Under the pieces are notes generated by a model, which searched no databases, had not been told where the DNA came from, and saw nothing but the letters and a program-made list of their open reading frames with translations. This document shows positions 7,443-26,522 of a DNA stretch of 64,000 bases, piece by piece. This DNA comes from Thiothrix fructosivorans (GTDB lineage Bacteria > Pseudomonadota > Gammaproteobacteria > Thiotrichales > Thiotrichaceae), in NCBI RefSeq assembly GCF_017349355.1, contig NZ_JAFMPM010000005.1:62001-126000 (forward strand), read 5' to 3'. A program made the translations under genes and the position numbers. Numbering within the stretch: the stretch's first letter is position 1; every line of letters begins with the position of its first letter.

Positions 7443-8657
7443 TTAACCATACCGCCCATCAATACGCGGCTTAATCAGCATTGGCGCATACTGCCACACA
7501 AACAGCGCAAACGCGGCAATCCACAGCAATTGAGCGCTCAGAATCCACATAGCGTAAAACTCTGGAACAAGCGCCGCATTCACCACGCGCACGAATGCAC
7601 CCGCAAACAACAGCAAGAAAATGATCGGCAAAATCGCTGGCGGCTCAGACACATCGCGCCCGGTGTGCCCTAACGAAACCCGCGTCATCATGCCGACCGT
7701 CATCAGCGCAATGCCGCCATACGCAAACGCATGAATCCACACCGGCGCAATGCCTGTTGCAAGGTGGAGGAATTTCAGCAAGAAACCGATCACTAACCAG
7801 CCATACGCCAGATACAACGCCCACAACAGCGGCTTTTCCCAGATATTGGCGTGATACCAGCCTTGCAAGCGGAAGCCGTGCAATACCGCTTGCACCAACG
7901 CCAAGATGCCCGTGAGCAATACTGCCATCGCGTTGCCCGTTGCCAGCGCGATCACATCTGCCACCGCAAACAGCAGGAACAGCACCAGACTGAAACGGTC
8001 TACCCATACATCATTGCGTGCCGTGAACGGGCAGCCCACGCCGCGCTCAATGAAAAAGGGGATAACGCGCCGCCCCATCGTAAAAATTAGCGCTAAAATG
8101 ATATAGAAACCAGCATACAAGCCGACTTGCACACCTTCTGCCCAATAGCCCAAGATGCCGAGGTAAAACGCGATATTGGCAGGAACGAGTAAGGCAATCT
8201 TGCCGACCAGTGCCAATTGTTTCCACTGCTTGCTACGAATAATCGGGCGGGCAAGGGCGATGGCGAGCCAGAGTAAAAATAGCGTATCGACGCTGGCGAC
8301 CACTATCAGCGGCACGCCAACAAACGGCAGTAAGCGAGCCAATGCCCATGCCCCTGCTAACACCAGCAACGGCTCTTCGTGCAACGTTTGCTGATTTGTC
8401 CAGTTTTTAACAGCAGTGAGCAGGAAGCCAGCGGCGACTGCAACGGCATACCCAAACACCATTTCATGCGCGTGCCACTGAATGGCGGGGTAATCGGCAT
8501 GTAAACCAGACCAGCCAAAGCCGTAAATGCCTGCCCACAGGATCATGCCAATCACGGCAAACAACCCCGCGCCGAGGAAAAACGGGCGAAAACCAAGGTG
8601 ATGCAGGGCGTATTTGCCGGTATAGGGCTTTTCGAGGTTTAGCAGCATGAACGACAT
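7443..8657 (-). CDS. NnrS family membrane protein
   Basis: This 404-residue polytopic protein has about twelve hydrophobic segments. Conserved histidine-containing motifs typical of NnrS are visible: LHHLGFRPFFLGAG near residue 18, IQWHAHEMVFGYA near 59, FFIERGVGCPF near 201, and WIHAFAYGGIALMTVGMMTRVSLGHTG near 307. NnrS is a haem- and copper-containing membrane protein linked to nitric oxide stress and denitrification. No denitrification genes are adjacent here. Neither candidate start codon has a clear ribosome binding site, so the N-terminus is tentative. Confidence 0.9.
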   Translation of the reverse strand: MSFMLLNLEKPYTGKYALHHLGFRPFFLGAGLFAVIGMILWAGIYGFGWSGLHADYPAIQWHAHEMVFGYAVAVAAGFLLTAVKNWTNQQTLHEEPLLVLAGAWALARLLPFVGVPLIVVASVDTLFLLWLAIALARPIIRSKQWKQLALVGKIALLVPANIAFYLGILGYWAEGVQVGLYAGFYIILALIFTMGRRVIPFFIERGVGCPFTARNDVWVDRFSLVLFLLFAVADVIALATGNAMAVLLTGILALVQAVLHGFRLQGWYHANIWEKPLLWALYLAYGWLVIGFLLKFLHLATGIAPVWIHAFAYGGIALMTVGMMTRVSLGHTGRDVSEPPAILPIIFLLLFAGAFVRVVNAALVPEFYAMWILSAQLLWIAAFALFVWQYAPMLIKPRIDGRYG

Positions 8658-8746: not shown

Positions 8747-10045
8747 TCAAAGAAATACGTCACGAGTAAAGTTGTTATACCAGCTATAAGCATATTGCAC
8801 GTCAATCAAGTGATCTTCATCGGAAGCGGCTATTGGTGATGTTCCCCCAGAGTTGGGTATGGTTTCAATGATTTGCCGATCCGCCGATAGTCGATACAAC
8901 GCGACAATGGACATGGCATAGCCATCACCGACAATACTGTAGCAGCCGTTACTGAATGAGGTTCGTCCCGGTTCACGTCCATTCAATAACGCTGCTACCG
9001 CCAACGCACAGGCTTTCGCCTCAGAGTTGGCTGCAAACCCTGATTTGGGTAAGGGGTTAGCAATGCATGCATCTCCAATGACATGGATATTTTCATACAA
9101 CGTAGACTCAAAGCTGGCAAAACCTACCGGACACCAACCACTGGCATCCGTTAAACCAGCCGTAAATGCCAACGCTCCCGCTTTTTGTGCCGGAATAAGG
9201 TTCAGCACACCTGCACTGAGCGTTTGTCCGCCCACCGTGGTAACTGATTTAGTGGCTGCATCTAGGCTAACCACCCCTTTATCCGCTCCCGCCACCCATT
9301 CAATCAAGGCATTATTGCTGCCGTAACCGTACAACTTCATCCACGCTTCTTCAAACAAGGGCTGTTTGGTAAAGCTGGTTTTGGGGTCAAGGATAATGAC
9401 CTTACTGTTCGGTTTGTACTTTTTGAAATAATTGGCTACTTGGCTGGCACGTTCGTAAGGGGCTGGTGGGCAACGGTAAGGGTTTGGTGGGGCAACCAAC
9501 ACGAATGTACCACCGTTGGGCATAGCTTCAAGTTGGGAACGTAGTAGGGTAGTTTGTGGGCCCGCTTTCCACGCATGGGGAATTTGCTCGGCGACGGTGG
9601 CACTGTATCCCGCCACGGTTTCGTAACGGTAATCAATCCCCGGTGCAACGATACAACGGTCATAACTGAAATTGCCAGCAGTGGTTTTTACCACCCGTGC
9701 CGTGGCATCAATCGCGGTGACTTCGGCTTGTACGACAGTAATACCACGCTTTTTCAGCGCGTCGTAACCGAATTGCAAGGAATCCAAGGTGCGCTCACCA
9801 CTCAATACCTCGTTGCTCATGTAGCAAGTGTAATAGGATGGGTTCTTTTCGATGAGTGTAATATTGATGCTGGGGTCTGCCAACTTCAGGTATTTGGCGG
9901 CTGTCGCCCCACCCGTGCCGCCCCCGACAATCACCACATTCGCGTTTGCGCCCCAACTCCGTGTGGATATCCCGGACATTAAGACCAAACCACCTGCCCC
10001 TAACGCTTTAAGGAAGTTCCGACGATTTACGTGTGTCATAGTCAT
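8747..10045 (-). CDS. fccB: Flavocytochrome c sulfide dehydrogenase, flavoprotein subunit
   Basis: FccB oxidises sulfide in the periplasm and passes electrons to a c-type cytochrome. The 432-residue product starts with a twin-arginine signal (RRNFLKALGAGG), then the FAD-binding VVIVGGGTGGATAAKYLK. The cysteine of YYTCYMSNEV (residue about 74) corresponds to the covalent FAD attachment site of Allochromatium FccB. The redox cysteines lie in RCPPAPYERASQ and GWCPVGFASFE, and the C-terminus has VQYAYSWYNN. The start may be 10045 or the second ATG at 10039; AGGGAG lies just upstream of both. It follows the DUF1501 gene by 7 bp and is the last gene of the unit. No free-standing fccA is present; an FccA-like segment lies inside the giant protein two genes upstream. 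Confidence 0.93.
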   Translation of the reverse strand: MTMTHVNRRNFLKALGAGGLVLMSGISTRSWGANANVVIVGGGTGGATAAKYLKLADPSINITLIEKNPSYYTCYMSNEVLSGERTLDSLQFGYDALKKRGITVVQAEVTAIDATARVVKTTAGNFSYDRCIVAPGIDYRYETVAGYSATVAEQIPHAWKAGPQTTLLRSQLEAMPNGGTFVLVAPPNPYRCPPAPYERASQVANYFKKYKPNSKVIILDPKTSFTKQPLFEEAWMKLYGYGSNNALIEWVAGADKGVVSLDAATKSVTTVGGQTLSAGVLNLIPAQKAGALAFTAGLTDASGWCPVGFASFESTLYENIHVIGDACIANPLPKSGFAANSEAKACALAVAALLNGREPGRTSFSNGCYSIVGDGYAMSIVALYRLSADRQIIETIPNSGGTSPIAASDEDHLIDVQYAYSWYNNFTRDVFL

Positions 10046-10052
10046 TTTCTCC

Positions 10053-11333
10053 CTAAACCCTGATGCCACTGGATACAGCGGGGTTAAACAAAGCCATTGC
10101 TTCTGCCTTGAGGCTGTAACGCTGTGCTAACGCATGGCTGTCAATGCCAAGCAATTTACGCAGTTCGGTATGGATGTGCTTGGTTTGTAAATAAACGCCG
10201 TTATTATCTGGCAGTAAGGTGTTAGGGTTAATCTTGACGCGCTGGTGTGCAGGTCCACTGACACCAACGATACGGTTTGCCCACGGTGCGTTTTTCGCCA
10301 TGATGAAATCGCTACCCAATGACCAATGGTCTTTGCCGTTGGTGGCATTATAATTGGGTGTGCGTCCTACATCGGAAGTGACGTGTACCACTAGCCGATT
10401 GCCTAACCCCATGCTGTCGGCTTTTGTCCACAGGTAATCCAATAAGCGCGTCATGTCGGTCAAGGTATTGGTGTGGGCATTGTCATGATTGCCGTGCGAA
10501 TCCCAGCCACCCGTCCCAAAACTCCCCGTTGCCGTCATGCCCGCTGCTGCCAATACCAAGAACATGTGTAATTCGCGGATGCCATTGCGTTTCATCCCCG
10601 CTAAATCATTAGTATCTAACGTAGCAGGCAATACTGTTCCCAAGGCTTTGATGTCTGCACTGCCCACACGGGCGCGTTGCAGCTCCTCCAGCTTACGTTG
10701 CCAACGTGGCAGATTATCCGGCTGTTGCTGTTGCACCGTCAGGCGGTCTTGCTCGTAACGGTGCAGCAAATCTAAATGGGATGGCGCGTAATAAGTCTTC
10801 GTACCAGAATTAAAATTTGGATTAGCCAAGGTACGTAACAAGTTTTCGTCCGGCAGTGCCGTAAACGGCATAATTCCCACCGTACTGTCGAACCCGCCTT
10901 GGCGCACAAAGGGCATGGGCAACGCAGCCCCCACCGCCGCCGCATACAACTCATTGGTGGAAGGGAAGCCATCCATCAAATTGCCAGTATTGCGGGTACG
11001 GCTAGCTGCATCATGCCCATTGGTTTGGATGTCAATCCCATTAATAACCAAGATTGAGTTGTAATACTTATTGAAAAAGGCGGTGTTCTCCGCCATTGGG
11101 GCGAAGCGCAAATTGCCTGCTCCCCCAGCTTTCAAGGTACTCGCCCATTGGTTGATGGCAGGGTTTTCACGCGGGTCGGAAAAGGAACTGTGGTCCCAGC
11201 CTCCGCCCAGATGTATGGTCAGCAATACCTTGCCCGTATGCAAATTAGCGGCATAAGCACTACGCCCAGCCCCAGCCAATACACTAGCCAAGCTCGCCGC
11301 ACTCGCCAGTTTCAGAAAGTCACGTCTATTCAT
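10053..11333 (-). CDS. DUF1501 family Tat-exported protein
   Basis: This 426-residue protein has a twin-arginine signal (MNRRDFLKLASAASL) with cleavage near SAYA (residue 28), followed by VLLTIHLGGGWDHSSFSDPREN. The GGWDxH pattern recurs later as GTGGWDSHGNHDN, and there is a HVTSDVGRTPNYN segment. This is the DUF1501 pattern, which is distantly related to alkaline phosphatase/sulfatase folds. DUF1501 genes are usually paired with large cytochrome-bearing DUF1592/DUF1800-type proteins. Here the gene lies between the giant cytochrome-bearing protein (27 bp gap, GGAGG ribosome binding site) and fccB (7 bp). Its biochemical role is unknown; it may act in export or assembly of the giant protein. 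Confidence 0.88.
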   Translation of the reverse strand: MNRRDFLKLASAASLASVLAGAGRSAYAANLHTGKVLLTIHLGGGWDHSSFSDPRENPAINQWASTLKAGGAGNLRFAPMAENTAFFNKYYNSILVINGIDIQTNGHDAASRTRNTGNLMDGFPSTNELYAAAVGAALPMPFVRQGGFDSTVGIMPFTALPDENLLRTLANPNFNSGTKTYYAPSHLDLLHRYEQDRLTVQQQQPDNLPRWQRKLEELQRARVGSADIKALGTVLPATLDTNDLAGMKRNGIRELHMFLVLAAAGMTATGSFGTGGWDSHGNHDNAHTNTLTDMTRLLDYLWTKADSMGLGNRLVVHVTSDVGRTPNYNATNGKDHWSLGSDFIMAKNAPWANRIVGVSGPAHQRVKINPNTLLPDNNGVYLQTKHIHTELRKLLGIDSHALAQRYSLKAEAMALFNPAVSSGIRV

Positions 11334-11360
11334 AGCCTATCCTCCGTTCCTATACGCTGA

Positions 11361-14300
11361 TTATTCATACAGGAAACGGGCATCGTTCATCAGGTACATC
11401 ATGACCACGCCCCACGCACGTTTGGTGTAGTTCGGGTCTTCCCAACTGGAATACAAGCGGCAAGCGGCATCCGTACTGTCGTTACGGCTTGCCCATACAT
11501 CACTAAACAAGCTGAAGCTGCGCGTGATTTCAGGATCGTCTATTGCCAGTTTTTCATTCAGGAATTGTCGATACAGGTATTGTAAATTGGTGCGTACCCG
11601 TTTCTCTCCGGCAGGCATATAGCCGCTGTCCGACATAATCACCCGTAAGTAAGTGTCATCCACGAACGAGTCATTGTTCGGATTGGTGCTGGTGTCGATG
11701 CGCTTGCCCTGCATGTAGAAGCGGATGCTACGGGTTTTGGCTGGAATAGAGGCGTAAGCCATTTCCGTTTTCCAATAACCTTCTTTAGCTGAAAGGATTT
11801 GGCTGGTAGCCAGTTCGTTGTCCGCCGCATCACGGAAGCTTAGGTACACACTGGCTTCATCATTGTTCACACTCCAGCCGCGCAACGCTGCCCCGAACAA
11901 TACTTTGGCTTTACTGGTATCAACCAGTGCTTTGGTTTGATTGGTGTCAATCAACGCTTTGGTTTGACCTGCGTTAATACCATCACTCCATGCGGTAATA
12001 TCCACGTTCTGATACAGGCGTCCTAGCGGGGTTGGGTTGGTACAAATGCTACCGGGGTTGAAGATTGCCTTGCCGCTATTGATCGAAGGTCCACCTTCAC
12101 AAGTGCCCGCTTTGCCAGATAATACCCGTGCTGTGCCTTGTTCCACTGTCCAGCCATCCAAGCCGTTCTCTGCACCCGAATTGACCAGCAGGTTGAGGGT
12201 GCTGGTATCAACTTTCTCATACACTGGCGTGTCCGTGGCTTCTACGAATGGGAACAGCTTGCGCCCGCTCGCGGTGAGTCGAAAATCATCCGCTACCGCG
12301 TTGCAACTGAGTTCGATGGCCATGCGTTCGGGGATATTGCCCATTAAACTGTTCATGTCGGTATTGGGTTTGCTTTGCAGTCTGCCACCGTCAAAGCCAC
12401 CGTAGAACTGCCCCATGCTGCTGTTCCACGCATTTTCTGGGCGGAAAGGCGACCAGTCCGTTCCTGTGAGGGATTTGATTTTGGCGTGCAATTCTTCCGG
12501 TGTCAGCAAGCGAGCCAAACCCGTGTCCGCAAGTACCTGCTGTCGTTCTGTCGACAAATCGCCTGCTTTGGCACGGAACAGGGGGCTTGCTGCCATATTA
12601 ATCAGCAAATCTTTGACGTTCCATGCACCATGCCCTTGGTCGTAGGCAAAGCGGCTGGCTATTTGCATCAAGATTTCGTCTTGCGCATTGTAAGCAGCCA
12701 TTTGGGTGGCATAACCCGCCGCATTCGGATCAACCGGCGCTTTGAGGGGTTCGCGTTTGAACAGTGGTTTGTACCAGAAATACACGCCACCCTTAGCAAA
12801 ACGCGGGTCTTGTACCAATTGTTTCCCTAACCATTGCAGGTTGTCTTGTGTTCCCGGAATGTTCAGTACATTGCTGTCGGGTATCCTGAAAAGGAGGAAT
12901 AGATCATCCAAATACGCATCGGTGTATTTGTCCGCCCATGTTTGGGTAGAACGCAGCCCTTGTACGGTAAAACGCAGTTTGCGAACACTTTTCGGTACTT
13001 TCGCCGTTGCTGTTTTAGCTGTCCAAGTCCACGAAGTCTTATCGGTCAGTACGGCTGTTTTACCGAGGCTCTTGCCTGCACTGTCCAGATATTCGACCCA
13101 TACGGAAGGGGTATCTTGCCCACCAAGGGAGCTGAAATAAGCACCAAAATCGATCTCAGCCTTACCTTGATCAACTTGAATGGCGGATGAGCTAATGTCT
13201 ACATCCTGCCATGCCAAGGTTTCATTCACAGGCGTGTTACAAGAACCAATTTGGTATAGATAACTACCTGTCTTGGGTGTGCGTGGGATGCGCGAACACG
13301 CAGCAGTATTGCTCGTTTCCAGTATGCCTTTATTCACTGTCCAGCCAGTAACACCGTTTTCGGCGGAAGGGCTTTTTAGCAGATTCGCGGAACTTGCCCA
13401 GGTTGTACTCGCATAATTGCCGTAACCACCGGGGGCAGTACTGTTATTAAAGCCGGTGGGGAACATATCCCGATACCATGTATCGTCGGTGTGATACCAC
13501 GGTTGCCCATTGTTATCCAAGGGATAGCTGCCGGACTTATAAACATTCGCCAAGGAATCCTTACCGCCTTTTGTCCCATCGAAGTTTTGCAGATAACGCG
13601 CATTGACACCCCAGTCGCGGAATGCCCCAGCTACCGGTTCCATAATGGTATGGCACACCATGCAGTTAGGATTTTGCATAGTCGGTACGAGATAATTACC
13701 GTTATTGCTGTCATCCAGCGGACGTTGCGCCAATGCCTCAATGTCCAGTGCCATGAACTGTTTGTACAGCCGTGAAGCACGGTGGCGATTGCGGTTAGTA
13801 TCCGTGGTTGGGAAGCGTGACAACCAGGCATTGGTACTCATTACTCCTGCATGGGCGAATGCCTTACCGGGGTAGCGTGCTGATACCTGTGGAATACGGA
13901 CTGGACGCAACTCTTTCGCGTCCGTCGCATTGGTAAAGCTGCCGCTGACGGGGTTTGCACCCAAGGCTTTCGCCAGTTGCGGGTTGGTAACGGTGTAATC
14001 AGCGGTTAACGCATCCGTCCACGGTTTATCGTTACCCACAAGGTATTGCAGCAAGAACACGGGTTCTTTGCGCTCGGCATCACTGGCAGCATTTTTTTCA
14101 TCCTGTGTTAGGCTGTTAATGGCTGGGAAGTCGCTAGCAGAAAGCCCCGAACCACTACCGATGCTGGCTGCTCCACTGCTCAGGAATACTTCATGCCCTG
14201 CGCGGTAGACAAACGCATCCATTGCTCCTTTCACATCCATCATTTGACGCAGGGTGACGCGGAAGGCTTCTTCCGTATTGGCTGCATCCGTTTCTGCTTG

Positions 14301-17300
14301 GGTTGGCAGGCGGTTCAGCAATAACAACGAAGCTTTGCGTAATGTGTCGGAATAATTCATCAACAGCACACCATCCGGTGCAACTTCATCGCTGGTGATG
14401 ACCGATGTTACCGCACTACTCACCACCGACCGATTGCCAAAAATATCTACAGCTACTACGGTGTACTGGTACTTGCCTGCCTTCAAGCCAGAATCCGTGA
14501 AAGTATTAAAGCTGGTTTTGCCAACCCACACCCCATCACGGTAAATGTCGTAATGGAGAACTCCCCAATCATCGCTAGAATCGACCCACGTCAATGTGGT
14601 GCTGGTGGGGGTGTAAGAAACAGCTTCCAGATCCGTTGGTTTTTCTGGTGGTTGGGTATCTTTCGCGTTGCTGGCGTAGAATTCAGCCAGAGCCGCGATA
14701 CCATTGTCACCCGCTGCCTTATACAGCAAGCTCATCGCATCAGCCATCTTGGCATTGGTTTGGCTACGACCTGCCGCGTAATCTTTCAGAGTATGCTGCA
14801 TATATGGCTTCCATTGCCCTGCCAGACGTGTGCCTGTCAAACTGACATCTTTCCCGCCCGACGTGTGGCACGATGCGCAATATTGAGTATGCAAATCCCG
14901 ACCTCGTGCTACTTGGGTAGCATTAGTGTTTTGGGTTGCCGCAATGAATGGTTGTTGTGAGAAGAACTCTGCCAAACGGCTGATTTCATCGGCTGAATAC
15001 CCTTTGGCAATGCGTTTCATGACGGTGGAAGCGCGATGACCACTTTGGTAGTCTGCCAAAACTTTGCTTAAGTATTGCTTGCCCATGCCGCCCAGTCCGG
15101 GAGTTGCAGGGCCAGCGCTGACCCCTGACGTACCGTGACAACTGGCGCAGTTCGCTGCCAACGATGCGGTCATCACCGGCTCATTCACATCCGGCACGTT
15201 AGTGCATTGTCCTGGTGTTTCTAATTGCCCTAACAAATTGGATAGCAGCGTGTAGTCAGTGGATGTCGCTGTGAATACTGCCCCACCGCCGTGGGTTATT
15301 TTACCGCTGACTTTATCCAGTACTGTTTGTTTGCCCAAGGTTTGGGTAACGCTGCTAAGTGCACCGAGATTGCGAGCGCTGGCATCCACTGCCGTGGAAA
15401 GGATGAAGCGGGTATTTTGTCCCATACCGCCTGCCACATGGCAGGTGATGCAGTTATTCATGGAACTTTCCACCTGCTGTTGGTAATACAACTGGGTGGT
15501 TTCACAAATACCGTCTGGGCTGATGGTCACGGCATTGCTGTCGAGTGAAACATTGCCTGCTGCGTCCAGTGCCTTGATTGTGTAGGTATAGCTGCGTCCA
15601 ATTTGCACCGTTGTGTCGGTGTAAGCCAACAGAGCGGTCATACCCAGTAAGCGTCCATCCCGCACAATACGGTATTTAGTAACGCCTTTATTATCAGTCG
15701 CCGCATCCCAAGCCAAACGTACCTGCTGGGTAGTATTGACCTGTGCTGTCAAATTGGATGGAGCGCTGGGTGCAGTGGCATCGCCGCTAGTAACTTCTAC
15801 CGCAGCAGAAGGAGCAGATGTATTACCCGCCGCATCCAAGGCGACTACTTGATAACGATACAGGGTGTTTTGTATGGCTTTACTGTCAGTAAAACGGGTT
15901 TGGGTGCTTGTGCCGATTTGTACGCCATTGCGCAAAATACGGTAGCTGGCAACTCCCACGTTGTCCGAAGCAGGTTCCCATGTCAATACAATTTGGGTAG
16001 GAGTCAATACCTCGGCGATTACGCCTGTTGGGGTTGTCGGGCCAGTACCATCCTTCGTCGTCACGCTCAATGCAGCAGAAGCTGCCGACAGATTACCGGA
16101 CGTATCCACCGCCATGACTTTATAAGAATATTTACCCGAACTTTGTAGCGTATTGTCCACAAATCCCTCTGTGCTGGTTTCCCCTAGCAGCTTATTATCG
16201 CGCCAGACTTGATAACCTTTGATCGCAATATTGTCCGTTGCTGCCGTCCATGTCAGCGTGACCGACACAGGTGTCAGTGCTTGCACCGCGAGTTTGGTTG
16301 GAGCGGTGGGTACTTGCGTATCGGGAACGGTGACTGTAAGTGTCGCTTGGCGGGATTCCTTACCGTTAGGCCATACCGCTGATACGGTGTATTTGTATAG
16401 CTTCATGGCTTGCACGAGCGTATCCGTGGCGCTGGGGGTGGATACGGTGGTTAACAGAAGGCCATCCTTATAAACCTTGTACTGGGTGACAATCGGTTGG
16501 TTATCCCATGCGAGGATGACTTTATCCTGTGCTAGCGTTGTGGTGCGCAAGTTTGCTGGCATTTGCGGTTCACTTAGCTGATCAGCTTTCCAATTCATTT
16601 GCGCTACGGCTGCCCCAGTGGCCTCGTAATATTCAGCCTTAACGGTATGTAGCCCCCCCGTCAGGAAAATCCGTTTGGTATAGGTTGTTGCTCCCTGATT
16701 TTTCCATGCATTCACCAGTGCTTGCCCGTCTACCCATAAGCGGAAGCCGTCATCACTTCTGACCGTAAAGGTGTATTCGCCCTCAGCAAAATCGAACTTA
16801 CCTTGCCAGCGACTCGAAAAATTCTCCGCATTAATACCCGTTTGTGGAGATGTGTTGCCCCAATCAAAATTGATGGCATCGTCGTAACGGGTTTCGGCTA
16901 CCTTGCCCGTCAAATCCTTGGTGTTATAAAAACTGGTGCAAAACTTGCCTTGTGGGATTTCTGTGCTGCAATCCGGCGTTTTTTCCCACCAGACTTTTGC
17001 TTTAGCATTGCCTGTATTTTCAAGGTATTCCACTTTGATCTTATGCACACCCGCCGTCATGGCGCTGAGCTGTCGCTGCTTGCCATACCACGGTGCTTTG
17101 GCTGTCCATGCATCAATCAGCAAAGTACCATCCACCCAGACTTTAACCCCATCATCCACATCGGTGAGAAAACGGTATAAACCTTGTTCAAAGCGCATAT
17201 TCCCCGTCCAGCGTACTGTGAAGCGGTCACTAGGTACGAAACTGCTGGGTGCTGTACCCACCCAGTCAAAATTAATCTGGTCAGCCAACACCACGTCAGC

Positions 17301-20300
17301 GACATCGCCGCTAAAATCAGGGGTTGCGTAGAACTCGCCACAGAATTGGTTTTCCGGCGTAGCACTGCATTCAAGCACCTTACTCCAGTTCAACTTGGCT
17401 CTTGCTACTGACCATGAATCGAAATACTCCATTTTCAGCGTGTGTAAACCGGCTGCCAATTTGAGGACTTTCTGCTGTTTACTGTTCTGTTGCGTCCACT
17501 TGTCGATAACCAATACGCCGTCCACCCACAAACGCACCCCCTGGTCGGTATCGGTAACGAAGCGGTAGTTACCGTTACCAAAGAGGTATTTACCTGTCCA
17601 CCGTGCCGAGAAACCATCCTTTGTCACCAGCGGATCAGGCTGCCCCTCTGCCCAATCGAAGTTTATTGCATCTGTTTTTAACACTTGTCGAGCGAAGCCG
17701 CTCAAATCTTGGTTATTATACAATTCCATGCAGAACGCATTGTCGGGCGTGACCGCACAGCCGCCGACTTCTGCCCAGCTCAATTTGATCTTGGCGCTGC
17801 CATAACTTTCACGGTATTCCACTTTGACGGTATGTCGCCCTTTCGACACATACGGTACGGATTGCACCTTGCTTTGCCATTGCCAGTCCATCGACCAATG
17901 ATCAAGCACCAGCACATCGTCTATCCAGACACGGACACCATCATCTGCTTCGCCGGTGAAACGGTAGTAACCCGCATTGAAATCAAATGCCCCTAACCAA
18001 CGTGCCGAAAACAAATCAGATTTTACGCCTTGCATTGGGCGGTTAGCGCCCCAGTCAAAATCCAGTGTTGGAGTGGTTTGAGTGCGCACTGCCGTGCCTG
18101 CTAAGGCATCTCCATCAAAGAATGCTCCACAAAAGCTACCCACTGGAATGCCATTGCATTCCTTCATTTGCGCCCAAGAGAGACGTGCGGTCGCATCCCC
18201 AGATTCTTCGTGATATTCCACTTTGATGAGGTGCTTACCTGCGGTCATCGGCAGGTCATAGGTATACTCACTATTGGCATTTGTCTGCCACTGGTTGATG
18301 ACCAGATTGCCATCCACCCACAAACGCATTCCGTCATCTGCTTGGGCAATGAAGCGATACTTATCCGCCACAAAGTTAAAATTGCCCTGCCAGCGCACTG
18401 AAAACTTATCCACGGGGACAATATCTGGTATGGGGGAGGTGTTTTTCCAAGCAAAATCCACGCTGGCATCTTCGCGAATCTTCACAGGACCATCGGTCAA
18501 ACTGTTGTTGGCGTAGTACTCTGCACAGAACTTGTTGTCTGGGAGCGTGGTGCAACCATCCGTCACTTTTACCCAATCCAGCTTCGCGAGGGCGCCGCTG
18601 GTTTTCTCGTAATACTCCATTTTCACGCGGTGCTTTCCAGCGCTAATCGGCGTACCTTGTTTATTGACACCGTTCCACTGATCTTTCCAAGAATCAATCA
18701 GCAAGCGATCATCCAGCCACACCCTTACCCCATCATCCGTGGTGGTGGTGAAGGTGTAATTACCGTTTTCAAAGGTAAAATCCCCCGTCCAACGCGCGGA
18801 GAAGTTGTCCGCCGGAAAACCACCACTCATGGGTGCGGCACTGCCCCAATCAAAATTGATCGCATTGGTTGCTTGGAAGCGTTTTGCCACACCCTCCAGC
18901 TTCATGTTGTCAAAGAATTCCCCGCAAAACGTCCCTTGTGGCACTGTGGTACAATTGCCCAAAGCCGCCAGCCAGCGGATGTCCAGATAGCTGCCCGTGA
19001 CTGCTTTCAGTTCCACACGGATACGGTGATTATTCGCTGAGAGATTTTTTAGTGCTTGGCTGAGGCTATTGGCGACAGAACCCGTATTTTCATAGAGCAA
19101 TACATCGTCTACCCATATTTTCAGTGCCCCGCGCCCGTGGCGAATGTCAAATGCATAATCTCCCGCCTTGGCGATGTTAAACAGGCCATCCCAACGCATC
19201 AATAAGCCGCTGGACAGGTCGATTCCTTGTGGAAAAGTAAACTTGCTGAAATCGAATTGGATGCCATTCGTTGTTTGCGTGGTGGTGGTATCCGCAATCA
19301 GTGTTTTGCTGGTTTTATCGACGAATGTCAGGCACATTTTGCCGCTGGACAAGCTGCACGCCATGCGTTTGAACGATAAATCCACTGCGGCATTGGAATT
19401 GATGTCGGTGTATTCCATGCGTACCGTATGTGCGCCTGCTGTCAATGCCAAATCTGCTGTCAAGGTACGGGTAGCGGTCGCTGCGGTGGTGTTGCCATTC
19501 AGAACCAGTACATTGTCAATCCACACGCGCACGCTATCATCCGCTTTTAAGGTAAAACGGTAATCACCACCTAAAACATTCAACGTAGCATGGTATTGCG
19601 CCGTAAATCCGTCTGCCCCAATGCCTGCATCTGGCCCACCCGACAGCCAATTTTTTACAAATAACGGCGAATTGCTGCCGCTGTCATCCACACTGATAGG
19701 TTGTTCCAGTATCAGCGCTGGTTGGGTATTGGTGTCTGTGCCTTTGTAATAAGCCACGCAAGATTGTCCTGCCACAGGTGCTGGACAAGTCAGTAATTCC
19801 GCTGACGCTTCCTCACGCAACCAAACCCCTTGGTTGGACACTGCCTTTGTAACGGTTTGCACTCGCGCACTGGGTACAGTGACGTGTAAGCCACCCTCCA
19901 AAGCAAATTTAGCCGGATAATCACTTTCCGTGACACTCGCTACATTCGCCCCAGTCGCCAACTTTGGGGTAAAGCGCCAAACTTTGCCATTGGCAGTTGT
20001 TGCTGGGGTTAGCACAAAAGGTTGTGCCCAATCGACCCCATTATCAGCCAAGCGGGTCAGCGCTGCGGTTGTGCCTACCTGTTGGTCAAACTCACCGAAT
20101 ACTTGATTAACCAGTGCATCATCCGCTGCCGAATTCGTATTGTTCAAATACACGAATTTCCGTGCTCCGGTCAGCCCTGCGTGCAAAAGCATTTCCTGAT
20201 ACAAGTCAGAATTTGTTAATAACGCGGTATAACCCGTTGTCACTGCTGCTTGGTTTTTGTTAGTCAAATAAGGGTAAAGCGGACGTGTTGAAGCTAATGC

Positions 20301-20852
20301 AGAACCTCGCAAACGATTGATTTCATAGCGGAAAGCATTAAAGGCACTGGCAGTATAAGTAGTCTGATTGATTGCTAACCCTGCCTTCGGCATCTGCCCA
20401 CTCAAGGTTTTGCTCTGCCCTGTGCCTATCGCCGCGCTGGCTTTGGTGTTTTCACCGGGAATCGCTACGCTGCCCGAATAATAGGCTTGATCACGCGCCA
20501 CCACTTGCGCCGTTTTAAATTGTGCTTGCAAAGGCGTGTAGAAGGCTTGGTTTAAGTATGCTGCCATCCGCGCTTTCATTACCGCGTTCCATGTTTGCTG
20601 ACGTTGGGTGGCTTGTGTATCCCCCGCATACATGGAGATTAAATCGGCAAAGCCTAATTGTGTTTGGATGGGGGCAAAGCGTGTATCGGTTTGAATAGCC
20701 AGTAAATAAGCTGCCAAATCCCCAGAAGCTTCTCCTGCCGCTTTAATGTCATCGGCGTTCAAGGCTAACGCTTGATAATCTAAGCTGATGAAATCTGCTG
20801 CCCCGCCAGCAAGCTTATATTGCCGGAAAAAACTCACCAACCCGTGCTGCAA
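11361..20852 (-). CDS. Giant secreted multi-haem protein, main part: PA14 x8, FN3 x5, FccA-like di-haem segment
   Basis: This open frame of 3,163 codons continues the signal-peptide-bearing frame upstream across a one-base slip in a homopolymer; joined, the product is about 3,304 residues. Numbered from 20852, an unassigned N-terminal domain runs to about residue 350. Eight PA14-like modules follow to about 1,425, then four FN3 modules to about 1,785. A monohaem segment (NCITCH, 1,801) comes next, then an FccA-like di-haem segment (NCASCH 1,902; YCASCH 1,992), a fifth FN3 (to about 2,155) and a long C-terminal region. That last region resembles planctomycete-type DUF1592/DUF1588 proteins, with a fourth haem site (NCMVCH, 2,397). 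Two lectin-like segments (ENGVTGWTV and ENGLDGWTV) lie within it. No membrane anchor is seen at the C-terminus. It is the first gene of a unit with DUF1501 and fccB, which suggests that it is the extracellular or periplasmic electron acceptor of FccB. The TTG at 20852 is probably not a true start. Confidence 0.85.
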   Translation of the reverse strand: MQHGLVSFFRQYKLAGGAADFISLDYQALALNADDIKAAGEASGDLAAYLLAIQTDTRFAPIQTQLGFADLISMYAGDTQATQRQQTWNAVMKARMAAYLNQAFYTPLQAQFKTAQVVARDQAYYSGSVAIPGENTKASAAIGTGQSKTLSGQMPKAGLAINQTTYTASAFNAFRYEINRLRGSALASTRPLYPYLTNKNQAAVTTGYTALLTNSDLYQEMLLHAGLTGARKFVYLNNTNSAADDALVNQVFGEFDQQVGTTAALTRLADNGVDWAQPFVLTPATTANGKVWRFTPKLATGANVASVTESDYPAKFALEGGLHVTVPSARVQTVTKAVSNQGVWLREEASAELLTCPAPVAGQSCVAYYKGTDTNTQPALILEQPISVDDSGSNSPLFVKNWLSGGPDAGIGADGFTAQYHATLNVLGGDYRFTLKADDSVRVWIDNVLVLNGNTTAATATRTLTADLALTAGAHTVRMEYTDINSNAAVDLSFKRMACSLSSGKMCLTFVDKTSKTLIADTTTTQTTNGIQFDFSKFTFPQGIDLSSGLLMRWDGLFNIAKAGDYAFDIRHGRGALKIWVDDVLLYENTGSVANSLSQALKNLSANNHRIRVELKAVTGSYLDIRWLAALGNCTTVPQGTFCGEFFDNMKLEGVAKRFQATNAINFDWGSAAPMSGGFPADNFSARWTGDFTFENGNYTFTTTTDDGVRVWLDDRLLIDSWKDQWNGVNKQGTPISAGKHRVKMEYYEKTSGALAKLDWVKVTDGCTTLPDNKFCAEYYANNSLTDGPVKIREDASVDFAWKNTSPIPDIVPVDKFSVRWQGNFNFVADKYRFIAQADDGMRLWVDGNLVINQWQTNANSEYTYDLPMTAGKHLIKVEYHEESGDATARLSWAQMKECNGIPVGSFCGAFFDGDALAGTAVRTQTTPTLDFDWGANRPMQGVKSDLFSARWLGAFDFNAGYYRFTGEADDGVRVWIDDVLVLDHWSMDWQWQSKVQSVPYVSKGRHTVKVEYRESYGSAKIKLSWAEVGGCAVTPDNAFCMELYNNQDLSGFARQVLKTDAINFDWAEGQPDPLVTKDGFSARWTGKYLFGNGNYRFVTDTDQGVRLWVDGVLVIDKWTQQNSKQQKVLKLAAGLHTLKMEYFDSWSVARAKLNWSKVLECSATPENQFCGEFYATPDFSGDVADVVLADQINFDWVGTAPSSFVPSDRFTVRWTGNMRFEQGLYRFLTDVDDGVKVWVDGTLLIDAWTAKAPWYGKQRQLSAMTAGVHKIKVEYLENTGNAKAKVWWEKTPDCSTEIPQGKFCTSFYNTKDLTGKVAETRYDDAINFDWGNTSPQTGINAENFSSRWQGKFDFAEGEYTFTVRSDDGFRLWVDGQALVNAWKNQGATTYTKRIFLTGGLHTVKAEYYEATGAAVAQMNWKADQLSEPQMPANLRTTTLAQDKVILAWDNQPIVTQYKVYKDGLLLTTVSTPSATDTLVQAMKLYKYTVSAVWPNGKESRQATLTVTVPDTQVPTAPTKLAVQALTPVSVTLTWTAATDNIAIKGYQVWRDNKLLGETSTEGFVDNTLQSSGKYSYKVMAVDTSGNLSAASAALSVTTKDGTGPTTPTGVIAEVLTPTQIVLTWEPASDNVGVASYRILRNGVQIGTSTQTRFTDSKAIQNTLYRYQVVALDAAGNTSAPSAAVEVTSGDATAPSAPSNLTAQVNTTQQVRLAWDAATDNKGVTKYRIVRDGRLLGMTALLAYTDTTVQIGRSYTYTIKALDAAGNVSLDSNAVTISPDGICETTQLYYQQQVESSMNNCITCHVAGGMGQNTRFILSTAVDASARNLGALSSVTQTLGKQTVLDKVSGKITHGGGAVFTATSTDYTLLSNLLGQLETPGQCTNVPDVNEPVMTASLAANCASCHGTSGVSAGPATPGLGGMGKQYLSKVLADYQSGHRASTVMKRIAKGYSADEISRLAEFFSQQPFIAATQNTNATQVARGRDLHTQYCASCHTSGGKDVSLTGTRLAGQWKPYMQHTLKDYAAGRSQTNAKMADAMSLLYKAAGDNGIAALAEFYASNAKDTQPPEKPTDLEAVSYTPTSTTLTWVDSSDDWGVLHYDIYRDGVWVGKTSFNTFTDSGLKAGKYQYTVVAVDIFGNRSVVSSAVTSVITSDEVAPDGVLLMNYSDTLRKASLLLLNRLPTQAETDAANTEEAFRVTLRQMMDVKGAMDAFVYRAGHEVFLSSGAASIGSGSGLSASDFPAINSLTQDEKNAASDAERKEPVFLLQYLVGNDKPWTDALTADYTVTNPQLAKALGANPVSGSFTNATDAKELRPVRIPQVSARYPGKAFAHAGVMSTNAWLSRFPTTDTNRNRHRASRLYKQFMALDIEALAQRPLDDSNNGNYLVPTMQNPNCMVCHTIMEPVAGAFRDWGVNARYLQNFDGTKGGKDSLANVYKSGSYPLDNNGQPWYHTDDTWYRDMFPTGFNNSTAPGGYGNYASTTWASSANLLKSPSAENGVTGWTVNKGILETSNTAACSRIPRTPKTGSYLYQIGSCNTPVNETLAWQDVDISSSAIQVDQGKAEIDFGAYFSSLGGQDTPSVWVEYLDSAGKSLGKTAVLTDKTSWTWTAKTATAKVPKSVRKLRFTVQGLRSTQTWADKYTDAYLDDLFLLFRIPDSNVLNIPGTQDNLQWLGKQLVQDPRFAKGGVYFWYKPLFKREPLKAPVDPNAAGYATQMAAYNAQDEILMQIASRFAYDQGHGAWNVKDLLINMAASPLFRAKAGDLSTERQQVLADTGLARLLTPEELHAKIKSLTGTDWSPFRPENAWNSSMGQFYGGFDGGRLQSKPNTDMNSLMGNIPERMAIELSCNAVADDFRLTASGRKLFPFVEATDTPVYEKVDTSTLNLLVNSGAENGLDGWTVEQGTARVLSGKAGTCEGGPSINSGKAIFNPGSICTNPTPLGRLYQNVDITAWSDGINAGQTKALIDTNQTKALVDTSKAKVLFGAALRGWSVNNDEASVYLSFRDAADNELATSQILSAKEGYWKTEMAYASIPAKTRSIRFYMQGKRIDTSTNPNNDSFVDDTYLRVIMSDSGYMPAGEKRVRTNLQYLYRQFLNEKLAIDDPEITRSFSLFSDVWASRNDSTDAACRLYSSWEDPNYTKRAWGVVMMYLMNDARFLYE
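14655..15176 (-). other. FccA-like di-haem cytochrome segment inside the giant protein
   Basis: About 174 residues match the flavocytochrome c di-haem subunit along their length. The first haem site is NCASCHGTSG, followed by SGHRASTVMKRIAKGYSADE and AEFFSQQPF. The second is YCASCHTSGGKDV, followed by RLAGQWKPYMQHTLKDY and AALAEFYAS. From memory, Allochromatium vinosum FccA carries the same landmarks in the same order (CxxCHG, SGEIASTIMGRIAKGYS, YCEKCHVEGGKP, LAGQWTPYLQYAMSDF, ALFAFYASQ) at nearly the same spacing. The segment is bordered by a monohaem segment and an FN3 module, so it is a true internal domain. Confidence 0.88.
16590..19800 (-). repeat. Eight tandem PA14-like modules (about 400 bp each)
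   Basis: Each unit is about 130-140 residues. Most open with a cysteine pair (C-x4-7-FC), then xDFxW, a FSARWxGxFxF strand, GxYxFxxxxDDGVRxWVD, and close with AGxHxxKxEYxExxxxAxxxLxW. The DDG-V-R-W-D core is the PA14 signature; PA14 modules bind carbohydrate in several adhesins and toxins. The copies differ in sequence, so this is an old duplication rather than a recent DNA repeat. The two N-terminal units are the most divergent: the first has DDSVRVWID and the second GRGALKIWVD. Confidence 0.85.
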
Positions 20853-21273
20853 CGGCGGTTACCCCTTTGTCCATCCAAATGCCGTGATCAGGTAAGTTAC
20901 TGCCATCTCCTACCGTAACCAACAATGGTTTGCCTTTGGCATCCGTCAGCAGATCAGCCGTTTTAGCAATTTGCAGGAAATCAAGGTCGAGGTTGAGTAA
21001 GGCTCGATGACCTAGCGGCATCACGTTAGTTGCGGCAAGTGAGGTAGTGACGGCTTGGCTAATACGGGTTTGATCAGTTAGTTGTTGTAGGGAAATACGG
21101 TGTAAAGGGCTAATTTTTTCCAGTGCCGCCGCTGTGGGATAGAGTGCATAGGCATGACTAGAGAAGTTTTCAGCAGCAAACCCCGCGCTTACGCTGCTGA
21201 TAAACAGAAAAACCGACAATAATCCGCTTAAGACAACACGTTGCCACACAGCTTGAGCCCCCATAACTTTCAT
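20815..21273 (-). CDS. N-terminal part of the giant protein with signal peptide, out of frame by one base
   Basis: This frame encodes about 152 residues: a signal peptide (hydrophobic LSGLLSVFLFISSVSAGFAA) and the start of the secreted domain. It then stops 12 bases after a run of six T on the coding strand (A6 at 20827-20832). Removing one T gives the continuous reading AARVGEFFRQYKLAGGAADF into the 3,163-codon frame, and the combined length is then exactly divisible by three. It is therefore the true 5' end of the giant gene rather than a separate protein. A GTG three bases upstream (21276) is an alternative start. No strong ribosome binding site is seen. Confidence 0.75.
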   Translation of the reverse strand: MKVMGAQAVWQRVVLSGLLSVFLFISSVSAGFAAENFSSHAYALYPTAAALEKISPLHRISLQQLTDQTRISQAVTTSLAATNVMPLGHRALLNLDLDFLQIAKTADLLTDAKGKPLLVTVGDGSNLPDHGIWMDKGVTAVAARVGEFFPAI

Positions 21274-21284
21274 CACCCGTATAT

Positions 21285-24786: not shown

Positions 24787-25335
24787 ATGGTGTTCAACCT
24801 GCCGGTGTTGCTGACGTGGCTGCGAATTGCGTTTATTCCGCTGTTGGTATTTCTGTTTTATTTGGATCGACCTTGGGCACCGTTGGCGGCGGCAACCTTA
24901 TTCGGGATTGCGGGCGTGACCGATTGGGCAGATGGTTATCTGGCGCGGTTGTGGCAGCAAGAATCACGCTTTGGCGCATTTCTTGACCCCGTTGCGGATA
25001 AGTTGATCGTTGCCGTGGCGTTGATTTTGCTGGTGGAACGCGAAACCAATGTTTGGATTACCTTGGCAACGGCGATTATTATTGGGCGCGAAATTGTGAT
25101 TTCAGCGTTGCGCGAGTGGATGGCGGAATCCGGCAATCGTTCCAAAGTAGCGGTGGCTTTTATCGGCAAGTTGAAAACCACCGCGCAAATCATTGCGTTG
25201 ATTTTCTTGCTCTACAATCAAGATTTGTTTGGGATTTTTCCGCTGCGGGAATGGGGTATGGTGGCATTGGCAGTGGCGACGGTACTGACCGTTTGGTCGA
25301 TGGTGCAGTACCTGCGCAGTGCTTTTAAGGATTAG
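24787..25335 (+). CDS. pgsA: CDP-diacylglycerol-glycerol-3-phosphate 3-phosphatidyltransferase
   Basis: PgsA makes phosphatidylglycerophosphate, the committed step to phosphatidylglycerol and cardiolipin, in the inner membrane. The 182-residue product has several membrane segments and the full CDP-alcohol phosphotransferase signature D-x2-DG-x2-AR-x8-G-x3-D-x3-D (from DWADGYLAR to GAFLDPVADK). The ATG at 24787 sits one base after the uvrC stop, and a purine-rich GGGGAAGAGAG at the end of uvrC serves as ribosome binding site. Its stop overlaps the stop of the convergent next gene by 2 bp. Confidence 0.96.
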   Translation: MVFNLPVLLTWLRIAFIPLLVFLFYLDRPWAPLAAATLFGIAGVTDWADGYLARLWQQESRFGAFLDPVADKLIVAVALILLVERETNVWITLATAIIIGREIVISALREWMAESGNRSKVAVAFIGKLKTTAQIIALIFLLYNQDLFGIFPLREWGMVALAVATVLTVWSMVQYLRSAFKD

Positions 25336-26522
25336 GGTGACAGGCTGTCTTGGTATGCTTTGAGTTGTGCCCACTCACCGTAAGCAGCGAGAGCTGCTTG
25401 CTTAGGCCAGCTTGAGGTGTCGTGTTTGCTGAACTGTTCGTCTTCCACAATCAGCAGTGCTTGGAGTTTTTGGGGAGATGTTTCCGATAACTGCTCATAG
25501 GTGTGGATGCCTGCACGGTGCAATACCGAGGCAAAAGTAGGACCGATACCGACCAGTTTTTGCAGATCATCGTGTTTGGTCGACAGATTGCTGGCGAGCT
25601 TTTCGGTGAGTTCCTTGGCACTGGCGGCTAGTGCGGCGAGGGTAGAACCACCTTTGGCGAGTGTTTCAGCAGACGTGAGTGAGCTGCTTTTGGCGGAGAT
25701 TTCGTTGCCGATTTCTTTGGCTTTGTGTAGCCATTCGTTGGTTGCGGGTGTCGCTTTTTCGGTGAGGTGTTCGACACCTTCTTTGGCTTTGTGTAACCAG
25801 CTATTCAAAAGATTACCAGTGGTTGGTGTTGCTTCGGGCATATCAGGTGGGTCGATAATAGGTTTGTGTGGATCAATTGCCGCCAGTAGCGGATCGTGCG
25901 GTGGCTCGTCGAGATCGGCACTCGGTGGTTCAATTGGCATGGTCAGTGCTTCCAGTGATAGTGGTGTTTCCCATTCCATATCAGGTGGGTCGATGATGGG
26001 TTTGTGTGGATCTATTGCAGCTAGTAATGGATCAATTTCTGGTAGTTCGATGCTAGTGGGAGCTGCTGGAAGCGACCATGAGGATGCTTGCACGATGGGC
26101 ATATCCAGATCGGTATCCAGCGTAAAATCAGTATCTACCGTCAGATCCGTGTCGGTAGCCAATGTCATATCGGGTGGGTCAATGATCGGTTTGTGCGGGT
26201 CGATGGCTGCTATCCATGCCGGTAGCGTTATTTCTTCGGGTATTTCCACCAGTCTGGGTTGCATCTTAACTTTGGGGACATACACGTCCGGCACAGCCTG
26301 TTTGGCATGGGCATTGGTCGTATTTATGTCGAAGTCACGGGTATGGTATTTACTGTTCGGTAATGGTGTGAATGTTTTGCGAGTTTTGCAGCAAAGCCCT
26401 GCTTGGCGAAGCAGCCAGCATAGCAACATACCTACGAGAAAAGTGAGCAGCAACAGGCTGACGATCTCGCCTGTTGCCATGCCGAAGGTATAGGTGTTAT
26501 TGGCGGTGTCCATGAGTGTCAT
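25332..26522 (-). CDS. Membrane-anchored protein with Pro-rich repeats and C-terminal helix-hairpin-helix domain
   Basis: The 396-residue product has one N-terminal membrane segment (residues about 18-40) followed by CCKTRK. A long acidic, proline-rich linker has three copies of AIDPHKPIIDPPDM. A helical stretch rich in Lys/Glu/Ala and a C-terminal domain (LQKLVGIGPTFASVLHRAGI) follow; the latter resembles the helix-hairpin-helix folds found at the C-termini of proteins annotated DUF4332 or NADH-dehydrogenase-E-like. It is a paralogue of the 218-residue protein next to it: the N-terminal membrane segment and C-terminal domain match and the linker differs. A perfect hairpin terminator separates the two genes. 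The function is unknown. Confidence 0.6.
   Translation of the reverse strand: MTLMDTANNTYTFGMATGEIVSLLLLTFLVGMLLCWLLRQAGLCCKTRKTFTPLPNSKYHTRDFDINTTNAHAKQAVPDVYVPKVKMQPRLVEIPEEITLPAWIAAIDPHKPIIDPPDMTLATDTDLTVDTDFTLDTDLDMPIVQASSWSLPAAPTSIELPEIDPLLAAIDPHKPIIDPPDMEWETPLSLEALTMPIEPPSADLDEPPHDPLLAAIDPHKPIIDPPDMPEATPTTGNLLNSWLHKAKEGVEHLTEKATPATNEWLHKAKEIGNEISAKSSSLTSAETLAKGGSTLAALAASAKELTEKLASNLSTKHDDLQKLVGIGPTFASVLHRAGIHTYEQLSETSPQKLQALLIVEDEQFSKHDTSSWPKQAALAAYGEWAQLKAYQDSLSP
25839..26209. repeat. Three dispersed 44-bp repeats encoding AIDPHKPIIDPPDM
   Basis: Near-identical copies lie at about 25839-25882, 25977-26020 and 26166-26209, spaced 138 and 189 bp apart, inside the linker of the membrane/HhH protein. 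Protein identity is complete over 14 residues, while the DNA differs mainly at third codon positions. This points to selection on the peptide rather than a fresh duplication. Confidence 0.8.

Follow-up and report, generated by a model that had tools for sequence, protein, structure and literature searches.

An FccA-type di-haem domain in a giant PA14 protein encoded together with an FccB-family flavoprotein in Thiothrix fructosivorans

The window analyzed here is a 64,000-nucleotide stretch of the Thiothrix fructosivorans genome (contig NZ_JAFMPM010000005.1), and the three genes of interest, called the trio below, lie on its reverse strand. The giant scaffold gene consists of a main open frame at 11361..20858 (3165 codons from stop to stop, or 3163 amino acids counted from the first TTG) and a 5′ part at 20815..21276, which lies in another frame and encodes a signal-like N-terminus. 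It is followed by the genes of a DUF1501 protein (10053..11333) and an FccB-family flavoprotein (8747..10069, with a start more likely at 10045), both of which have Tat-like N-termini. The frame break in the giant gene was mapped to a T run at 20827-20832 (T6 in the window versus T5). A relative (L075) spans both frames unbroken, its residues 10-156 matching the 5′ frame and 154-260 the main frame, and the uncut giants of the relatives have 2785-3696 residues as against the 3163-codon main frame of the window. Assemblies often gain or lose one T in runs of this kind, and the break may be such an error or a strain-specific one. An NnrS gene (7443-8657, reverse strand) is located directly downstream of the FccB gene; no NnrS match was obtained in the 25 other loci of this kind, where the flanks are short. 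A 396-amino-acid open reading frame at 25332-26522 on the reverse strand contains the repeated motif AIDPHKPIIDPPDM.

The giant carries eight PA14 domains at 16587..19679 on the reverse strand (PF07691, E = 1.5e-135 in 8 stretches), which were mapped to 19368-19679, 18969-19313, 18570-18917, 18171-18518, 17772-18122, 17382-17723, 16983-17333, and 16587-16931. These are followed by four fibronectin type III domains (PF00041) at 15528..16547, mapped with a model built from the fn3 domains of the window itself, and by a segment bearing the first haem site (CITCH, 15438..15452). The FccA-type di-haem domain is located at 14655..15176, with CxxCH motifs at 15135-15149 and 14865-14879, and another fibronectin type III domain was found behind it at 14409..14627. 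The C-terminal region (11361..14400) contains the fourth CxxCH site (13650-13664) and resembles a divergent PSD4 (DUF1592) plus PSCyt3 (DUF1588) module. The four haem sites claimed in the preliminary description were all mapped. In the C-terminal region of the window giant, PSCyt3 (PF07627, E = 0.0084) and PSD4 (PF07631, E = 0.044) were both under their cut-offs, and PSD4 in a relative (L083) scored 21.8 bits, under the cut-off of 23.3. The N-termini of the giants have hydrophobic stretches, as judged by eye, and inspection by eye of their C-termini revealed no anchor.

The FccA segment gave its best match to FccA (E = 1.4e-40), compared with 2.3e-15 for cytochrome c4, and an identity as cytochrome c4 was therefore rejected. 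The periplasmic di-haem shuttle PdsA (NF049874) was also rejected by its score of 89.1 bits, the curated cut-off being 330. Both CxxCH motifs and two Met residues are kept in all 24 of the fused FccA domains compared; we take the two invariant Met residues to be the axial haem ligands. When the fold of the segment was checked, the FccA fold was present. The sequence, fold, and haem motifs bear out the initial assignment, and it is apparent that the giant contains an FccA-type di-haem domain.

The window FccB matched 1fcd_A with an E value of 6.2e-150, and scored 154.9 bits with PF21706 (FCSD_central; cut-off 27), 65.2 with PF09242 (FCSD-flav_bind; cut-off 26), and 18.5 with the Tat model TIGR01409 (cut-off 16.7). 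It keeps the equivalents of Cys42, Cys161, and Cys337, numbered by the 1fcd alignment, and of Trp391, while Tyr306 is replaced by Phe and Thr336 by Gly. We take the three Cys residues to be the FAD-linking Cys and the redox Cys pair. The FAD-linking Cys and the first redox Cys are kept in 24/24 partner FccBs, and the second redox Cys and Trp391 in all 23 uncut ones. The roles of these cysteines are described, with no residue numbers, in the portion of PMC12010331 used here, which also places Tyr306 and Thr336 between the flavin and the subunit interface. The Allochromatium vinosum numbers printed in that portion for Thr and Trp do not match the chain, so we obtained them anew by combining the T. 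roseopersicina numbers given there with the 1fcd alignment. In 39 free FccBs, the two positions are invariably Tyr and Thr; among the partners, the former is Phe in 23/24 (Tyr in L097) and the latter Gly in 21/23 (Ala in L085, Thr in L096). These are two of 13 FccB columns that distinguish the partners from the free FccBs (with at least 80% agreement within either class), and three others lie no more than three residues away from Cys161 or Cys337; in FccA, only 3 columns distinguish the fused from the free class. Since the partner FccBs differ from the free ones at Tyr306 and Thr336, the enzyme may not behave as that of A. vinosum does, and with the eleven further separating columns, the substrate or the electron route may differ. 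Because FccA sits in the giant and the partners are marked by Phe and Gly, the FccA and FccB of the trio are, as judged from sequence, a variant branch and not the canonical free-standing FccAB.

The DUF1501 protein matched PF07394 (E = 8.2e-13), with two Tat models both just under their cut-offs. Its predicted structure had a low mean pLDDT of 47, and the best Foldseek matches were to the alkaline-phosphatase/sulfatase-like superfamily with TM-scores near 0.2; on these values, the possible fold of this type in the model is a hint only. A PDB search with the DUF1501 profile gave 11 matches up to E = 1; ten were to fucose-binding lectins (best E = 0.0093) and the other to a signal stretch of CueO, and all were judged to be chance matches. 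The DUF1501 and DUF1552 profiles showed a weak match to each other (probability 63), which extends over the N-terminal third and takes in the Tat end.

A second trio was found in the window's genome (L013). It consists of a 1695-residue giant, a DUF1552 gene, and an FccB gene, and the giant has the order He_PIG, three CBM2, fn3, FccA, a mono-haem domain, and PSD3/PSD5/PSD4/PSCyt3/PSD2. This arrangement was designated type B and that of the window type A. A search with the FccA segment was performed in 63 genomes of the family; among the matches listed, type A occurred in at least 10, type B in at least 14, and one or both in at least 16. The order-level search covered the same 63 genomes. The class sample (369 genomes) added one carrier from another family (G202) with both types, and the phylum sample (398 genomes) yielded no further fused carriers among matches at E = 1e-25 or better. 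In the genome-contig scan, a giant was present in 1 of 80 loci among the matches listed, on the G057 contig that had already been found, and the longest frames after it had 543 and 435 amino acids. In a plasmid tblastn search, none of the 124 records obtained reached 60% identity, and the best match (Photobacterium, L073) was rejected as a free di-haem protein inside a cytochrome cluster. The proposed check for other FccA fusions thus gave 26 fused loci (11 type A and 15 type B) in 17 genomes among the matches listed.

Two of these loci (L083 and L095) are cut before FccB. In the 24 that are not (10 type A and 14 type B), the order of giant, DUF1501 (type A) or DUF1552 (type B), and FccB is the same throughout, and the uncut giants of both types have 1,254-3,696 residues. 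PA14 is present in 11/11 type A giants, with 6-11 copies in ten of them, and the spacing of the haem sites is constant in 10 (101-104, 90, and 403-405 residues). Constant spacing combined with a varying PA14 number gives type A the look of a conserved redox core carried by an adjustable stalk. In type B, PSD3, PSD5, PSD4, PSCyt3, and PSD2 are over their cut-offs in all 15 giants, and two to four CBM2 copies were found in 14, the fifteenth (L097) being cut at its N-terminal end. The type A C-terminal region matched the type B module by hhalign with a probability of 85 (E = 5.9e-6). The neighbor gene of the second trio was identified as PF07586 (HXXSHH-type, 211.4 bits), and the other 14 type B neighbors were identified by BLAST to it. 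In one genome (G050), type A and type B operons are arranged head to head around 6477-6752 of L077, their longest open reading frames 274 bp apart and divergent, hinting at shared regulation.

Quick trees (no bootstrap) were computed for 63 FccA/FccB pairs (10 type A, 14 type B, and 39 free). In each tree, a single branch set the fused pairs apart from the free ones, with SH-aLRT values of 91 for FccA and 99 for FccB. Types A and B each formed one side of a branch in the FccA tree with low support (48 and 80, respectively); in the FccB tree, A requires two changes and B three, with deep rows from G202 and G035 unplaced. The FccA and FccB distances of the fused pairs were correlated (r = 0.915, none of 2000 permutations being as high), as were those of type A alone (0.872, no permutation as high), type B alone (0.864, one), and the free pairs (0.764, none). 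Because the free pairs correlate too, part of the co-divergence reflects shared species history.

The window's genome contains five FCSD_central genes in all. Besides the two trios, it holds a free fccAB (L014), whose fccA adjoins its own FccB, and two mono-haem FccB pairs. In the latter (L015, 3445-5138 and 11808-13409 of G000:C8), each FccB-type gene is directly behind a mono-haem cytochrome gene, the two being about 7 kb apart with other cytochrome genes close by. In six genomes of the genus, an in-frame TGA in mono-haem cytochromes (L187-L192) was considered as recoding and rejected; the TGA is simply where the cytochrome gene ends, overlapping the beginning of the fccB behind it. Each of the 16 genomes of the genus encodes one or more FCSD_central proteins. 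A fused FccA is present in 11 of them, and in 9 of the 11 no other FccA-type cytochrome was detected at E = 1e-25. Free FccA was detected at that threshold only in the carriers G000 and G054, and neither fused nor free FccA in the five non-carriers. The claim that this bacterium carries its sulfide dehydrogenase cytochrome inside the giant holds as regards the FccA unit itself. It is too strong in implying a sole cytochrome, as the same genome has the free fccAB, the second trio, and the two mono-haem pairs; with the free pair and further FccB-type genes at its disposal, this strain does not obviously depend on the trio for basic sulfide oxidation. The free fccA is not a partner of the window FccB by position, and the operon in 24/24 loci, the co-divergence, and the 9/11 carriers point to that FccB as the likely partner of the giant.

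The analysis shows the FccA fold and the other domains of the giant, the order of the genes and its conservation, the co-divergence of FccA and FccB, and the retention of the catalytic residues. In the best explanation, to which we give moderate credence, the three genes would encode an exported, scaffold-anchored flavocytochrome c, from which electrons leave via the FccA haems while the array binds a polysaccharide matrix. FccB would oxidize sulfide, or a related persulfide or thiol, by means of its cysteine pair and covalently bound FAD while docked onto the FccA domain inside the giant, and electrons would pass from the FAD to the two FccA haems. They would then reach a c-type cytochrome or another acceptor, directly or via the giant's two haem sites outside FccA (one before FccA in type A, plus the PSCyt3 haem). 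The complex would be tied to a polysaccharide matrix, for example a sheath, holdfast, or mucilage, by an array of PA14 domains in type A and of CBM2 domains in type B, and the DUF1501/DUF1552 protein would be a fixed accessory of the PSD/PSCyt module. We infer complex formation, sulfide as the substrate, the outside location, polymer binding, and the route past FccA. The giant is probably an exported, sugar-polymer-binding protein, which suggests sulfide oxidation that is fixed to a matrix and not floating free. Its location outside the cell is possible in view of the CBM2 of the sister type and the type II secretin of the window's genome, in which two GspD proteins were over the cut-off. As the preliminary description had proposed, the giant may lie at the surface, bind carbohydrate or sulfur, and transfer electrons over a long range. 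A farther-reaching reading, which we consider rather unlikely, is that the trio is a new sulfide dehydrogenase branch, a solid-phase four-haem conduit in the extracellular polysaccharide of sulfur bacteria, with a flavin-to-haem path altered by Tyr306Phe and Thr336Gly and a PSD/PSCyt-DUF1501/1552 relay, by which sulfide would be oxidized outside the cell and electrons carried along the matrix.

It is possible, though doubtful, that the complex is periplasmic, with the scaffold binding peptidoglycan or the sulfur-globule envelope and so bringing sulfide oxidation to the globule. This reading is a rival of the scaffold-anchored flavocytochrome c only as to where the complex lies. The canonical FccAB is described as periplasmic in the part of PMC12010331 drawn on here, and the ordinary export-like N-termini and lack of a C-terminal anchor seen by eye agree with such a location. 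However, the CBM2 arrays of the sister type and the type II secretin fit the outside better, although not decisively. A pseudogene in the window, with its FccA domain decaying as a mere passenger, would account for the one-base frame break, but is very improbable and, for the family, largely refuted. Elsewhere the 3163-codon frame is unbroken. Of the ten type A relatives, L083 is open up to the contig end and the others throughout the gene, and the nine uncut ones keep four CxxCH motifs each and the FccA haem residues.

An unlikely reading of the trio is oxidative polysaccharide processing, in which a bound sugar polymer is the substrate of PSD/PSCyt and DUF1501/DUF1552, FccB/FccA were recruited as electron source or sink, and sulfide is only fuel or is uninvolved. 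The complete type B module in 15/15 giants, CBM2 in 14/15, the adjoining DUF1552, and the altered residues close to the FccB active site are in its favor, as are Verrucomicrobia PSCyt proteins with CBMs or PA14, which the consulted part of PMC5615132 ties to carbohydrate use. In addition, DUF1552 lies by PSD/PSCyt genes with FccB not seen in 3 of 6 class genomes having DUF1552, in one of which (L103) the upstream side is cut by the contig end. On the other hand, the catalytic cysteines of sulfide oxidation are kept, and a search for a lytic polysaccharide monooxygenase partner (LPMO, PF03067) across the window's genome gave no match. SoxB, counted in the 17 carriers and these three DUF1552 genomes, was over its cut-off in 17/17 (in 5 as summed pieces in one frame) and 1/3, respectively; its presence in the carriers is weak support for a sulfide role.

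Searching the open-licence literature by title and abstract opening gave no paper describing FccA fused to a scaffold. The trio is a real, conserved variant of flavocytochrome c, with no prior description found in that literature. Two Thiothrix papers (PMC8570282 and PMC10532065) report fccAB in all species, their portions consulted making no mention of a fusion, and genome surveys reporting fccAB may include the fused trio unnoticed. For some sulfur bacteria with fused FccA as the sole detected FccA-type cytochrome, this suggests flavocytochrome c chemistry on a scaffold. By fusion and gene order, members of PSD/PSCyt are also linked to an enzyme whose chemistry is known, and the function of the class thereby becomes testable; if the conduit reading is true, it would be the first function for a PSD/PSCyt-DUF1552/1501 system.

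Among known systems, PSCyt/PSD proteins that bear CBM or PA14 and have fixed neighbor genes occur in the Verrucomicrobia; they are of unknown function according to the part of PMC5615132 considered, and match the trio in module content (type B), HXXSHH-family neighbor, and CBM/PA14 attachment. That part mentions no FccA domain or FccB, and the type A module, unlike those systems, is under the Pfam cut-offs. Three further Gammaproteobacteria have PSCyt/PSD (DUF1587/1588/1592/1595/1585) beside DUF1552 or other fixed neighbors. In one locus (L103 138-2722, G113), a DUF1552 gene precedes a cytochrome-like, PSD-like protein, the reverse of the trio order, and FccB was not seen. Cellvibrio Cbp2D/Cbp2E (PMC12542752) and Teredinibacter TERTU_2913/3803 (PMC10916295) are, in the portions consulted, extracellular redox proteins that bear CBMs and act or are proposed to act in cellulose use; being exported and linked both to carbohydrates and to redox domains, they are work-alikes of the giants in architecture. 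Unlike the trio, their role is in cellulose use, and those portions mention no FccB partner. With flavocytochrome c FccAB (A. vinosum 1fcd and Thermochromatium tepidum 3vrd), the trio shares the FccB fold domains, FAD-Cys, redox Cys pair, and Trp391, as well as the FccA di-haem fold, haem motifs, and adjacent genes. In contrast to FccAB, the FccA of the trio is a domain of a four-haem scaffold of 1,254-3,696 residues where uncut, a DUF1501/DUF1552 gene lies in between, and the FccB is of a subclass with Phe/Gly at Tyr306/Thr336.
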